NCBI GenBank assembly: GCA_018061065.1
Contig: JAGOUV010000013.1
Span: forward strand, 1 to 38,649
Length of the DNA stretch: 38,649 nt
Direction of reading: 5' to 3'
Origin: Candidatus Altimarinota bacterium
GTDB taxonomy: Bacteria > Patescibacteriota > Gracilibacteria > UBA1369 > UM-FILTER-53-11
A program made the position numbers and the translations under genes. The notes under the pieces are model-generated. The model made no database searches, had not been told where the DNA came from, and worked only from the letters and a program-made list of their open reading frames with translations. Of this stretch, positions 8,875 to 36,062 are shown in pieces. The stretch's first letter is position 1. Each line of letters opens with the position of its first letter.

Positions 8875-9327
8875 ATGAAAAAAATACCCACATCTATTAT
8901 CGCAGCTGTTGCTCTTATATTTACGGTTTTCAGTGCGACTTTTGCTGCAAACTCAGGCATGTTTGAGAGCGCAGTTCTGAGATCAAAAGTAGTAATGCGA
9001 ATTCCCATAATAAATGGCGTGAAGCATACATTTTGTTCAAAACTGAATTCAGCAGCAACGAAATCAACTGCATCCAAGGCAAAGTTATTTAATAAACAAA
9101 TAAACCTCTGTAATAAGTTGGAAGAGTATCTTCGCTGCACTCAGCTCAGTGATAAACTTAATCAGGGCAACATAAGTCGTGAGGCTTCAGCCTCTGGGAA
9201 TATTACAGACAATAAGTGTAAAAAGAACGAGAAGAGTCGCTGCGCTGCACTTAAGGAAATGGCCAGAACGGGTGATATTACCCGTGACTTCCCTGAGTTG
9301 TTAGGAGCGCTTACTCATTGCAAATAA
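8875..9327 (+). CDS. secreted cysteine-repeat protein, one three-repeat module
   Basis: This 150-residue protein of unknown family has a signal peptide (MKK, hydrophobic core, predicted cleavage near FSATFA/AN). The mature part has exactly six cysteines (54, 79, 88, 115, 123, 149) forming three C-x(24-26)-C units. The third unit carries the hallmark RC-xAL...GDITRDFPEL...C; the second carries GNISR. The same repeats and the same post-signal NSGMF motif occur in the next gene, so the two are paralogues. The even cysteine count and export suggest disulfide-linked repeats. The function is not known. Confidence 0.8.
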   Translation: MKKIPTSIIAAVALIFTVFSATFAANSGMFESAVLRSKVVMRIPIINGVKHTFCSKLNSAATKSTASKAKLFNKQINLCNKLEEYLRCTQLSDKLNQGNISREASASGNITDNKCKKNEKSRCAALKEMARTGDITRDFPELLGALTHCK

Positions 9328-9355
9328 AAATATAAATAATTTTTAAAACAAATAT

Positions 9356-10255
9356 ATGCAAAGAAAATATTGGCTGCCTATCGCAGTCCTCGTAGTGGCG
9401 GTTGTTGCCGGAGTTGTAGGTAGTAGTGGCATGTTTCAAGGCTCAAGTAGGTTGGCTGTCGGAGATATTTTAACTCCACGGAGTATTGGGAATAGAGCTG
9501 CAGCCCCAGCTCGTCCACCTCTAGGCTCAACTGCACCACTTCCTCTCCCCCCGGGTCTTGCAGGACGCGTCAATGTTACCCCAACACAGCTTCGTTGTAG
9601 CATGATCCTTACCTCATTCCGAGATCGAGCTTTTAGTGCAAGCCATCCTGAGCTCCTCGATGAGTGGAGTGTTTGCCGTCAGTTAGCTACCAATCTTCGT
9701 TGTACTACTTTGGCAACTTTAAATAATCAGGGACTATTAAGTCGGAGTGGTCCGGATGCGGTTCGTGAATATGCATCATGTTTGGATACGATGAGCTATC
9801 GCTGTAGACAGCTTCAGTCGGTTGTATCTACGGGCAATCTCACCAGAGACTACCCGCAGCTTACTGATATGTTAATGCGTTGCGGTGAGTACTATAGAAA
9901 TAATGTTCCTGTAGCTCCCGTAAATGCCCGCTGTCAGCAGATCGCACAGATTGGTGGCAATATCACTCGCGACCATCCAGAGCTTTTGGACGAGTATTAC
10001 CTCTGTAATGAGTTGCAGGCTATCCAGCGCTGTACTCAAATTAACGCCTACTTCAATGATGGCTCTATCTCACGTGGTGAGCATCCTGAATTTAACCAAT
10101 GGGAAGTTCAGGCATGTGGTCCAGACTATGGTAATAGTGAACTATTAAGATACCGTTGCAGACAGCTTCATAGCGTCGCACGAGATGGCAATATCACTCG
10201 CGATTACCCAGAGATACAGGCATTGCTCGGAGTTTGTGGCAGAAATAATTTCTAA
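9356..10255 (+). CDS. exported cysteine-repeat protein, two three-repeat modules
   Basis: This 299-residue protein has an N-terminal hydrophobic segment (about 7-24) acting as signal or anchor, a Pro/Ala-rich spacer (about 48-70), then twelve cysteines in six units: 81/107, 116/142, 150/176, 193/217, 226/254 and 268/294. Spacing within a unit is 24-28 residues, mostly 26. The consensus is RCxQLx(5-7)GNITRDYPELx(5-7)C. Units 1-3 and 4-6 are two copies of the same triple module (compare LDEWSVCRQL with LDEYYLCNEL, and YRCRQLQSVV with YRCRQLHSVA). It follows its paralogue by 28 bp and is probably co-transcribed. I recognise no known domain; surface or matrix structure is a guess. Confidence 0.8.
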   Translation: MQRKYWLPIAVLVVAVVAGVVGSSGMFQGSSRLAVGDILTPRSIGNRAAAPARPPLGSTAPLPLPPGLAGRVNVTPTQLRCSMILTSFRDRAFSASHPELLDEWSVCRQLATNLRCTTLATLNNQGLLSRSGPDAVREYASCLDTMSYRCRQLQSVVSTGNLTRDYPQLTDMLMRCGEYYRNNVPVAPVNARCQQIAQIGGNITRDHPELLDEYYLCNELQAIQRCTQINAYFNDGSISRGEHPEFNQWEVQACGPDYGNSELLRYRCRQLHSVARDGNITRDYPEIQALLGVCGRNNF

Positions 10256-10256
10256 C

Positions 10257-12074
10257 TTAGTAAGAATCAATTTGCGTATACTTTTCCAGGGCTTCGTAGA
10301 AGCCCTGGTTTGATATACGGAAGATGCGTTCCTGCTCTCCTTTCAGCTCCCGAAATCGAGGTGCAATAGACTCAAGTTTTTCATAGGCCATTTTCACCCC
10401 CTTGATATCGTGGTGAATAAAGGCACTATCTACCCAAGCCATCCAGAGTTGCGGCCAGTGGGGCGCTTTAGTTGCCGTCTGTTGGAAGGCAATCTGCGCC
10501 TCATTATATTGGCCGAGCCCATCCAGAAACTGTGCCCGAGCAAAGCTTGAGTAGAAGCTATTATTTGTTATGCGCGTGAGCTCAGACAGCTCATAATCAA
10601 GGCGCGGAATGTAACTCGTATCAGAAGATATTTCGGTGCGGAATAATCCTAGATCTCTACGATACGAGTCGGCATAATGAGGAGCCGCCTTGGTAGATCG
10701 ACTAAAATAATCGTAGGCGATAGCCGGCTCAAGGATATAATGACTGAATCCTTTTTTTGCCAATACATCGGAGGTGATAACGCGAATACTCTCGGAAAAA
10801 GCAAAGACCGCGATAAGACTCAGCATCATAACTCCTGCGTAGCGCATTGCACTTTGCACCGTGATGAGGCGCTGCGTTACGATGCCCACCTCATACAAGA
10901 GAACTGCCATTACTGCAGCGAAAAATACTGCATGTGCAGCGCCGTAAAATCCAAACTGTAATGAGATAAAGTAGCTCGATAATATACTTATGCAAAGAAG
11001 TGCGGTGGGAGTTTTAATTTTTCTCTGAACGAATATCCCGGCGATAAAAAATACCATTAACAACTCAATGGCAACTCCCACAAAGCCACGAGTGACCAAC
11101 GTATCCAAGAGCCAGTTGTGGGCGCGATCGGGAATCTCAGAAAGTCGTTCGTAGAGATACAGATCTTTTGAGAGATGTGGCTGAATTACTTGATAGTAAG
11201 TCTCAGGTCCACTGCCAAATATTGGTCGATCAGCCGCAGTGGAAAGGCTGTTTTGCCATAGTATCGTCCGCGTTCCCAGCGAGCGAACATGTGGGGAGAT
11301 AAAGGCAATGCCGATGATAACTGCCGCAGCGCCCAGTGTTAATAATACCGCGCGCAGCAATGGTTTTTTTGCTTTAAAATGAACGATGAGCACTCCTATG
11401 GTAAAGCCCACTCCCAAAAGTGATGCACGATTTTCTGTAGTAAGGAGCGCAATGAAAACAAGCACAGCCCCGAGCGCCAAAAAAATACGCTGCATTTTTT
11501 TTCGTTTTGCATCAAAGGTGAAAAATAAACTCGTCCAAAGAGGAAAGATAAGAAGTTGTCCAAGTGCAGTAGGATTACCCATAAACGAATAACTGCGTCG
11601 TCCAAAAAATGACCACTCACCTTGTGGAATAAACGTCACCCACTGCCAGATCGCATGTACTGAGAGAATTACTCCCACGGCTATGACGACTTTGAAAAAT
11701 GCATCCCGAATCTCGCGGTCTTTACATATATATAGGCAGACTAAAAAGTGGAGTCCATAAAAGACATGTGAGACGAGGCCCTGCATGCGGCTAAAGGTTC
11801 CCCAAAAACTTTCCACCGGTGCAATTGAGAGTGCGGTAGAGAGGACAAAAGACAGTATCCATGCCCCAAAGACCCAGCTTATAAGGGGAGAGCTCCTGAT
11901 GGAGAGGTTTTTAGCCATCAATAACCTCACTCCACAGATCAGGCTCGCAGCGCCAACTACGATCCAGAGCCATACCTGTTTGCTTGCTTCGTAAGTGCCC
12001 TCACTCCCCCATGGATTCATGACCAAAGGTATGAGAAAGACAGCAAGATAGAGGTATTTGTTTATATTTTTCAT
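10257..12074 (-). CDS. O-antigen ligase/polymerase-like membrane protein with TPR tail
   Basis: This 605-residue protein has about 11-12 hydrophobic segments in residues 8-430 and the Wzy_C/WaaL signature around a large external loop, RAHNWLLDTLVTRGFVG. Such proteins ligate or polymerise undecaprenyl-linked glycans at the outer face of the membrane. The C-terminal about 150 residues are soluble and TPR-like (YNEAQIAFQQTATKAPHWPQL, then a second helix pair), as in other O-antigen-ligase proteins of Gram-positive-type and CPR bacteria. The stop is one base from that of the convergent repeat protein. Ligase and polymerase activities cannot be told apart by sequence; in CPR cells the acceptor is unknown. 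Confidence 0.8.
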   Translation of the reverse strand: MKNINKYLYLAVFLIPLVMNPWGSEGTYEASKQVWLWIVVGAASLICGVRLLMAKNLSIRSSPLISWVFGAWILSFVLSTALSIAPVESFWGTFSRMQGLVSHVFYGLHFLVCLYICKDREIRDAFFKVVIAVGVILSVHAIWQWVTFIPQGEWSFFGRRSYSFMGNPTALGQLLIFPLWTSLFFTFDAKRKKMQRIFLALGAVLVFIALLTTENRASLLGVGFTIGVLIVHFKAKKPLLRAVLLTLGAAAVIIGIAFISPHVRSLGTRTILWQNSLSTAADRPIFGSGPETYYQVIQPHLSKDLYLYERLSEIPDRAHNWLLDTLVTRGFVGVAIELLMVFFIAGIFVQRKIKTPTALLCISILSSYFISLQFGFYGAAHAVFFAAVMAVLLYEVGIVTQRLITVQSAMRYAGVMMLSLIAVFAFSESIRVITSDVLAKKGFSHYILEPAIAYDYFSRSTKAAPHYADSYRRDLGLFRTEISSDTSYIPRLDYELSELTRITNNSFYSSFARAQFLDGLGQYNEAQIAFQQTATKAPHWPQLWMAWVDSAFIHHDIKGVKMAYEKLESIAPRFRELKGEQERIFRISNQGFYEALEKYTQIDSY

Positions 12075-33836: not shown

Positions 33837-36062
33837 CTATCTTGGAGAGACGTCCGGTGAGTTGATATCTGAGGCTAACTCAATCCACGTATTATTCAAT
33901 TCATCTAGCTCAGCTATTTCATTGCCGCTATCTATGGTGATGTTGATTTCCTCATATCCAGCAATATTCTGTGTATTAATAATCCTACTCTCTCCGGCTT
34001 CCAGACCATCTACCCTGTATTCTCGTATAGTCACTGGCAAGCCAACTCCGCGCTGCCGAAAGCCACTTACTAAGATAGTAAAGCCACCTGGAATAGGAAT
34101 TTCCGAGTTATTGTAAACAGAGACTTCATTATTACCACCAAAGCCACTGAGCAGCCCGCCGTAGCCAGATTGAACAAGAAGATCGTAGTGAGTCGCTATT
34201 TTAGCTTCATTTATATTGATATGCACACGGGCGGTTGTTGAGTTAAAGGAATCCCACGATAGTGTTATGCCAAGCTCATCACTGGCAAAGGCCTCACCGG
34301 CAGGAATGAAAATATTTGCAAAGTCGACGATGCTGTTTGATTCAGGGTGCAATGCAATTTCTTCCTTTATTGCCGGCACTTGATGGGGACTCGGATCTAA
34401 TAGATATCTAGACAGGGCGTGATTTCCCGATACGGGGCAGTATTCAATTACCAATCCGCCCTGAGCAGGAATACCTCCTGAATTAAAAGGTGGATCTTGA
34501 AGAGCATATATTTCTTCTGAATATATGGCATCCTCACCAATAGGGCGTCTATATTCTATACAAACTGGATAGGGGTCGAGTGGGACACGAATCAATTGAG
34601 GAAGATTTTGGAATATATTAGTAGCGGTTTCCAAATTATGAAGATTGATATCTCCATCGTGTAGTAATGTAGAGATACGTATCCATTTGCCTGCAATATA
34701 TTTCCCCCATCCTCCGATGTGGCCATTCCCACTCCCCATCATATCGAAGCGATTTCCATATTCTAATAGTTGGCACTGATCGATCACTGCGTTGATGGTA
34801 ACATCTCCACATTCGGCTGCATTTGCGTGTCCTTGGGAAAACAATGCATGTCCTAGTTCATGCGATACGAGATATTTATTAAAGCGATCTGCGGCTATAT
34901 TTGTTATTGGGTTGTAGTTGCCAATTTGAGCTACGCCAATACGAGATACTCCTTCCTCGCTAATAATTTCCTGTGTTCTACCAAGCCCTCCCAGTGCCTG
35001 CATACTTGGATACACAATTAATCCATCAATCTGAGTAAAATCAATAAATGGATCGCACATATCAACTGCACCCTGTATCTCACCAAAATTACTTAACTCA
35101 TCTGGATCTCCACCGGGAAGATTATTTGCCCATATTTGGCCACTATCAACGATCTGCGTTAAATTGATTCGCGCTTTACCAAAGGAAATCTCCCGATAGT
35201 ATGCATCTACCTCAGACATAATTGAACGTAATTCTTCTTCAGACAGGGTTTGTATGTTGGGTTCCCAGCGCGTAATGCATATAGCTACTCTTTCCCCGTT
35301 ATTTTGTTGTGGTTGCTGTGGACGTCTTGCAATGGCTGCATTCAGTCCATCTCGATCAAAAGGAAGATTTGGCGAAGGAAGTGAAAATACAATCTCACGG
35401 CGAACATTCTCCGCAGCACCTAAAAGTGCATTAATAAAATTCTGTGGAAGCTGAGTTCTACGTGCATTTTTCTTGAAGGCATAGAGCTTTGGCAGTGTAT
35501 CAGCTTTCATTTTTTCTACCGCAATTTGTGCATCATCATATAATCCTTTTGAATACAAAGTACGGACGTAAGCCCCATCTTTTGAGATTATTTGAAGGGC
35601 TTGCTGCAGTTCTTTGGGTACATTTGTAATTTTATTTTTTGCTATCAATGTATTGATTGCAGCGACCTGTGAATCTATGCGATCAAGTGTTTGAGGTTGG
35701 GTTGCCGTTTTTTTAACAAATAAAACTTTGTCTTTTAGCTCTTCATGATCCAGTTTATGCACCAGAAGTTCTTTTTCTTCGTCTGATGAGGATTCAATTT
35801 TCTGCCTATAGGCTGCTATTTTTGACTCATACGCGCTTAATTTAGTACTCAATGCGGCTTTGCCCTGGAGAGAGGGCTTGAGGGCAGTTAGTTTATTTTT
35901 TAAAATATCTAAATTAGTTACAGAGGCATGCTTTACGAGCGTTGGTTTAGGACGAAATTCAGAAAGAGATCCTTTCAATAAGCCGCTACCACTCAGTACA
36001 GAAAAAGCTGCAATAATTATAATAATCAATGCGCCCAGTAGTGCGATTTTTTTATTTTTCAT
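33837..36062 (-). CDS. secreted metzincin-like (M11-type) metalloprotease with CARDB-like tail
   Basis: This 741-residue protein has a membrane anchor or signal (about 7-27), a long helical coiled-coil-rich region (about 50-225), and a zinc protease domain (about 255-570). The metal motif is HELGHALFSQGHAN (401-405, His412) with a Met-turn FDMMGSG (439-445) and a surrounding C/EYG pattern like gametolysins. Metzincins have HExxHxxGxxH; here there is one extra residue before the third His. The C-terminal domain (about 640-730) ends with NEIAELDELNNTW, the CARDB hallmark. It should act at the cell surface; the substrate is unknown. It lies 16 bp after pdxS. Confidence 0.8.
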   Translation of the reverse strand: MKNKKIALLGALIIIIIAAFSVLSGSGLLKGSLSEFRPKPTLVKHASVTNLDILKNKLTALKPSLQGKAALSTKLSAYESKIAAYRQKIESSSDEEKELLVHKLDHEELKDKVLFVKKTATQPQTLDRIDSQVAAINTLIAKNKITNVPKELQQALQIISKDGAYVRTLYSKGLYDDAQIAVEKMKADTLPKLYAFKKNARRTQLPQNFINALLGAAENVRREIVFSLPSPNLPFDRDGLNAAIARRPQQPQQNNGERVAICITRWEPNIQTLSEEELRSIMSEVDAYYREISFGKARINLTQIVDSGQIWANNLPGGDPDELSNFGEIQGAVDMCDPFIDFTQIDGLIVYPSMQALGGLGRTQEIISEEGVSRIGVAQIGNYNPITNIAADRFNKYLVSHELGHALFSQGHANAAECGDVTINAVIDQCQLLEYGNRFDMMGSGNGHIGGWGKYIAGKWIRISTLLHDGDINLHNLETATNIFQNLPQLIRVPLDPYPVCIEYRRPIGEDAIYSEEIYALQDPPFNSGGIPAQGGLVIEYCPVSGNHALSRYLLDPSPHQVPAIKEEIALHPESNSIVDFANIFIPAGEAFASDELGITLSWDSFNSTTARVHININEAKIATHYDLLVQSGYGGLLSGFGGNNEVSVYNNSEIPIPGGFTILVSGFRQRGVGLPVTIREYRVDGLEAGESRIINTQNIAGYEEINITIDSGNEIAELDELNNTWIELASDINSPDVSPR

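Follow-up and report, generated by a model that had tools for sequence, protein, structure and literature searches.

Cysteine-hairpin repeat proteins adjoining a Wzy_C/TPR ligase in Gracilibacteria, a possible O-glycan acceptor family

The window analysed here, a 38,649-nucleotide stretch of contig JAGOUV010000013.1 from a Candidatus Altimarinota bacterium (GCA_018061065.1), encodes two tandem exported proteins, P0001 (150 residues; 8875 to 9327, forward strand) and P0002 (299 residues; 9356 to 10255, forward strand), which are built from short units bounded by two cysteines. There is good support for these units forming a real repeat family, apparently undescribed, whose genes adjoin those of one subfamily of membrane proteins with a Wzy_C domain and C-terminal TPR. 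With a probability of about one half, we consider the unit proteins to be disulfide-stapled surface proteins that serve this adjoining oligosaccharyltransferase-like enzyme as cognate partner and probably as O-glycan acceptor.

Both proteins have a hydrophobic start followed by SGMF. A hydrophobicity scan places this start at 8896 to 8946 in P0001, where it could be a membrane anchor or a signal peptide, and at 9371 to 9421 in P0002, where it is an N-terminal transmembrane segment. An earlier reading of this DNA from the letters alone (the sequence-only reading) had located both open reading frames (ORFs) correctly, and its observations largely hold: 6 cysteines in P0001 and 12 in P0002, with none unpaired by count. 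It gave the spacing as C-x(24-28)-C; the regularity is confirmed, but the measured range is C-x(23-27)-C. P0001 has three units, C54-x24-C79 (9034 to 9111), C88-x26-C115 (9136 to 9219) and C123-x25-C149 (9241 to 9321), while P0002 has two modules of three, C81-x25-C107 (9596 to 9676), C116-x25-C142 (9701 to 9781), C150-x25-C176 (9803 to 9883), C193-x23-C217 (9932 to 10006), C226-x27-C254 (10031 to 10117) and C268-x25-C294 (10157 to 10237), all on the forward strand. Units within a module are separated by 7-8 residues, with 16 between the modules of P0002 and 13 before its last unit. When mature P0002 was shuffled 200,000 times, six such cysteine pairs never arose. A hidden Markov model (HMM) of the unit matches all six in P0002; in P0001 it matches units 2 (weakly) and 3 only, the degenerate first unit lacking the proposed consensus, RCxQL...GNITRDYPEL...C, and being recognised by its cysteine spacing. 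The triple modules of the two proteins do align, with homology over the module in BLASTP (E = 9e-14).

That the signature belongs to no known family was also borne out. P0001, P0002 and P0003 (a third copy, below) gave no credible family match and no Sel1 or TPR profile match in Pfam and NCBIfam, and the unit family gave no credible match among PDB sequences, nothing significant among PDB folds with Foldseek, none in viral contigs searched for relatives and, as a negative of limited weight, none in a VIA-align fold search. Weak Pfam, NCBIfam and PDB matches (SAS4, DUF2973, FAM195 and GAT domains) were dismissed as chance, and so was an EF-hand or dockerin loop (D-x-D-x-D-G-x-I), which calls for acidic residues at loop positions 1, 3 and 5: across the unit alignment, positions 1 and 3 hold Ala or an aromatic residue or vary. 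Sel1-like repeat proteins, such as the Helicobacter cysteine-rich proteins (Hcp), are secreted arrays of ~35-residue alpha-hairpins with one disulfide per repeat. The AlphaFold2 models discussed below likewise place a helix-turn-helix in each tandem unit, and the Foldseek result is still compatible with distant kinship to Sel1/Hcp or TPR-like repeats, but here each helix carries one cysteine, with a spacing of about 25 residues, and the consensus differs.

The family extends well beyond the window. The window's own genome was sampled as stretches covering ~28% of it, the window included, and another of its contigs encodes P0003, which has 179 residues, three units and GGMFQG after the membrane segment. 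A profile made from the ten units of this genome only (A3), searched in 89 genomes of the order, found a 651-residue protein in genome G075 (JAUUZY010000001.1; E = 7.6e-4) in which eight units of the form RCxxVKxxWDxGNWTxRFG...CK are followed by SLH (S-layer homology) domains. The overall sequence of this protein looks unrelated to the unit proteins of the own genome; the units of the two genomes, compared profile to profile, match with E = 3.8e-9. A joint profile retrieved further members in G338, G033, G074, G678, G580, G063, G064, G065 and G069, which brings the number of further genomes with unit-bearing relatives to about ten, all of the same class. Some of the relatives' records carry the name Candidatus Peregrinibacteria/Gracilibacteria in the ligase-alignment search. 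When 380 genomes sampled from the phylum were searched, the unit profile matched members of this class only, and the family in these searches is confined to one class of Patescibacteria. Weak matches in G040 (L019), G463 (L046), G409 and G459 were not accepted as relatives. Seven relatives carry C-terminal SLH domains in Pfam, which backs the surface role proposed in the sequence-only reading, although Pfam finds none on P0001, P0002 or P0003 themselves.

That reading was right about the novelty of the family but missed both its wider spread and the gene that abuts P0002. At 10257 to 12074 on the reverse strand, convergent with P0002 and 1 bp away, lies a gene for a membrane protein annotated as an O-antigen ligase/O-oligosaccharyltransferase, the proposed cognate enzyme, with a Pfam match to Wzy_C (PF04932, 1.3e-16) and a weak one to TPR; the C18 copy of the ligase matches PF04932 at 1.8e-21, and both Wzy_C matches are above the cut-off. 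Proteins of this subfamily start with YLxIFLIPLVMNPWG and combine Wzy_C with a C-terminal TPR, which is confirmed at profile level by a search of the subfamily alignment (A6) against PDB, where only TPR chains and no WaaL were matched. Since this ligase is the family's defining context, the feature should be widened to include its gene.

A unit gene adjoins a member of this same subfamily in 11 of the 12 unit-bearing loci, at distances of -31 to +83 bp and in convergent, divergent and same-strand arrangements. The pairing is kept across families and orders, with the remaining flanking genes varying by locus. Two of the three Wzy_C genes of the own genome are paired with unit genes, and the other Wzy_C loci in G338, G033, G580 and G678 have no adjoining unit gene. 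The subfamily itself occurs in 47 of the 89 genomes of the order (A6, E 1e-40), and the association was also tested in reverse, with the unit profile searched against 673 ORFs around 22 ligase members that had not been used to find the subfamily. Eight of the nine best matches were the gene adjoining the ligase (binomial p ~1e-11 at a chance of 1/30 each), and a background of 2,069 ORFs from the own genome gave no significant match. Several distant ligase neighbours also show alternating cysteine gaps of about 28 and 16 residues (27-32 and 15-20), a pattern independent of the profile. The two-gene association of unit protein and ligase is real and well supported; it is known in kind, as a dedicated ligase with its acceptor, and new in its parts.

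Structure prediction agrees with the idea of a repeated fold, with units modelled as repeated alpha-hairpins and the two cysteines of a unit on the two helices of its hairpin. AlphaFold2 models a double unit from G580 (26 related rows; predicted local distance difference test, pLDDT, 85.7) with one cysteine per helix, in the order first-cysteine helix, short helix beginning at a conserved Trp-Thr, and second-cysteine helix. The model of a three-unit module of P0002 (four rows; pLDDT 73.3) is helical throughout; long helices run from one unit into the next, and each unit's cysteines lie on two successive helices. A single disulfide staple across each hairpin, between the two cysteines of the unit, is the most likely arrangement, and the own genome has genes of oxidative folding, for VKOR and a DsbA-like protein, which makes it plausible that disulfides form outside the membrane. 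Among 35 aligned units, the fully conserved positions are the two cysteines and a Thr/Ser (32 Thr, 3 Ser) about 12-15 residues past the first cysteine, near mid-unit. An N-x-T sequon for N-glycosylation was dismissed as a general site because its Asn is conserved in only 17 of 34 units, while the Thr/Ser is present in all 35.

The near-constant adjacency suggests that the unit proteins are surface proteins decorated with sugar by the ligase. P0001 and P0002 would be exported to the cell surface as arrays of ~35-residue alpha-hairpins and held there by the N-terminal membrane segment, a role that SLH domains would take in many relatives. On the outer side of the membrane, the Wzy_C/TPR enzyme would take over a glycan carried on undecaprenyl and attach it to the unit protein. 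The candidate site is the invariant Thr/Ser at the centre of each unit, and the number of glycan chains would rise with the number of units. The Candidate Phyla Radiation has hardly been explored for protein glycosylation, and if this proposal is correct, a ligase with its own stapled repeat surface protein would constitute a concrete, testable O-glycosylation system for these uncultured bacteria, from which new acceptor tags might be drawn. Candidate functions would also be gained for a set of exported proteins that have no recognised family in present databases.

Known systems offer several parallels. WsfB, an S-layer glycan transferase, and PglL both combine Wzy_C with a C-terminal TPR (PMC2943079), and the protein-specific enzymes TfpO, TfpM and PglS are often encoded near their own acceptors, while the general PglL is not (PMC12645811). 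In Acinetobacter, the gene of PglS, a Wzy_C-type oligosaccharyltransferase, lies close to that of its dedicated membrane-anchored acceptor ComP (PMC12800693, PMC12645811), and the sequon recognised on ComP spans 23 residues with a cysteine at each end (C-x21-C) and modification at Ser12 (PMC12800693), much like C-x13-T-x10-C in the units here. Taken together, the WsfB/PglL layout, the gene proximity of TfpO, TfpM and PglS, and the parallel with the PglS sequon lead us to prefer the reading as an acceptor in which each unit offers a single site. ComP differs in being pilin-like, with a single such segment, no helical repeat array and no SLH domains, and TfpO/PilO and TfpM act on type IV pilins, with modification of the C-terminal residue (PMC12645811). 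WsfB and WsaB serve SLH-type S-layer glycoproteins in Paenibacillus alvei and Geobacillus, on a monoderm-type surface, and many relatives of the unit proteins also bear SLH domains. The glycosylation clusters there are larger, whereas here the ligase and its putative acceptor form an abutting two-gene unit. To our knowledge, known S-layer acceptors contain no cysteine repeats.

Several observations weigh against the acceptor proposal. PglL_A and Wzy_C_2, both present in PglS, were not found in Pfam scans of the window and C18 ligases, and therefore we do not claim PglL/PglS membership for them; a Wzy_C domain also fits glycan ligases and polymerases of other kinds and by itself does not identify an O-oligosaccharyltransferase (PMC12645811). 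The conserved Thr/Ser may simply be an unmodified helix N-cap. An eight-unit SLH protein of 977 residues in G580 (L062, 741 to 3674, reverse strand), its units well conserved, does not lie beside a Wzy_C gene, and some ligase neighbours lack both units and a high Ser/Thr content (e.g. G086, 13%). The first unit of P0001 retains the cysteine spacing without the consensus motif.

Alternatively, the unit protein could be an unglycosylated, non-covalent partner of the ligase, a surface scaffold or co-factor that docks on its TPR or tethers exported polysaccharide at the cell surface, much as SLH domains bind wall polymers, with the ligase making an exopolysaccharide or wall polymer or attaching such a polymer elsewhere. 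The adjacency and the SLH evidence fit this too, and Wzy_C proteins include polymerases and lipid or polymer ligases; in the model, the Thr/Ser lies where the short helix begins, as an N-cap would. We regard such a partnership as possible but tentative, given that Wzy_C with TPR is the layout of WsfB and PglL and that the adjacent partner in two genomes consists of Ser/Thr-rich repeats, a better fit to acceptors than to a binding scaffold (ligase neighbours without cysteine units in G047 and G066 have long V/P-S/T repeats).

A doubtful alternative is that the unit protein is a rigid surface protein for attachment to host cells or minerals, or a coat subunit, and shares nothing with the ligase except an envelope locus. 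Large cysteine-rich extracellular proteins from the same lineage, exported and with a proposed role in attachment, have been reported in Peribacteria, and the accessible part of that report describes no ligase pairing (PMC4736985). A merely shared locus sits poorly with an adjacency that involves one Wzy_C subfamily only and persists across families and orders though other flanking genes differ. The units are short and diverged, with a mean column identity of 36-40%, and one could ask whether the cysteine pattern is a low-complexity coincidence and no family at all. This is very improbable in light of the shuffles, the profile-profile match to G075, the retrieval of the eight-unit SLH protein of G075 by A3, and the gene neighbour that the loci have in common.

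The SGMF that the sequence-only reading noted after the signal is present in both proteins (8953 to 8964 in P0001, a degenerate form of a juxtamembrane G-x-F-Q/K-G; SGMFQG, 9425 to 9442, in P0002, both forward strand), but comparison across ligase neighbours shows it to be just part of a broader [F/L/W/T/G]-[Q/K]-G pattern. The motif occurs in 21 of 31 ligase neighbours, while among 49 exported proteins of the own genome outside this group it occurs in 5 (p ~2e-7, an optimistic value because the motif was defined post hoc and the control was counted by eye from a list). Relatives that end in SLH domains mostly lack G-x-F-Q/K-G, and those without SLH domains mostly have it. It is conceivable, though we think it unlikely, that the membrane segment with G-x-[F/L/W]-[Q/K]-G is an N-terminal sorting or processing tag through which this ligase subfamily joins surface proteins to glycan. 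The motif would then be an N-terminal counterpart of PEP-CTERM/exosortase in Gracilibacteria/Peregrinibacteria, with cysteine-hairpin arrays as one of several cargo types.

The sequence [F/L/W/G]-[Q/K]-G-x-[L/F/I] after a membrane segment, possibly a sorting or processing motif, recurs in ligase-adjacent exported proteins of many genomes, with examples at 9425 to 9442 in the window, at L021 (1402 to 1500) and in L097, L098, L094, L093, L091 and L088. Related sequences follow the membrane segment of an exported 741-residue protein in the window (33837 to 36062, reverse strand; SGSGLLKGS), which has an HExxH-like metalloprotease stretch, and of two exported own-genome proteins with no Wzy_C gene beside them, at L112 (4955 to 6262, reverse; GSLKGSL) and L102 (9887 to 11254, reverse; GKLYKG). 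Exported V/P-S/T repeat proteins of mucin-like composition and without cysteine adjoin the ligase at L093 (3390 to 4037, reverse) and L094 (900 to 1241, forward). In a second type of ligase neighbour, a QG-type membrane anchor precedes short L-x-x-x-L and S-S/T-W-T-L repeats with few cysteines, as at L087 (2161 to 2895, reverse), L088 (957 to 1379, forward), L089 (855 to 1382, forward), L090 (3350 to 3757, reverse) and L086 (3442 to 4131, reverse).
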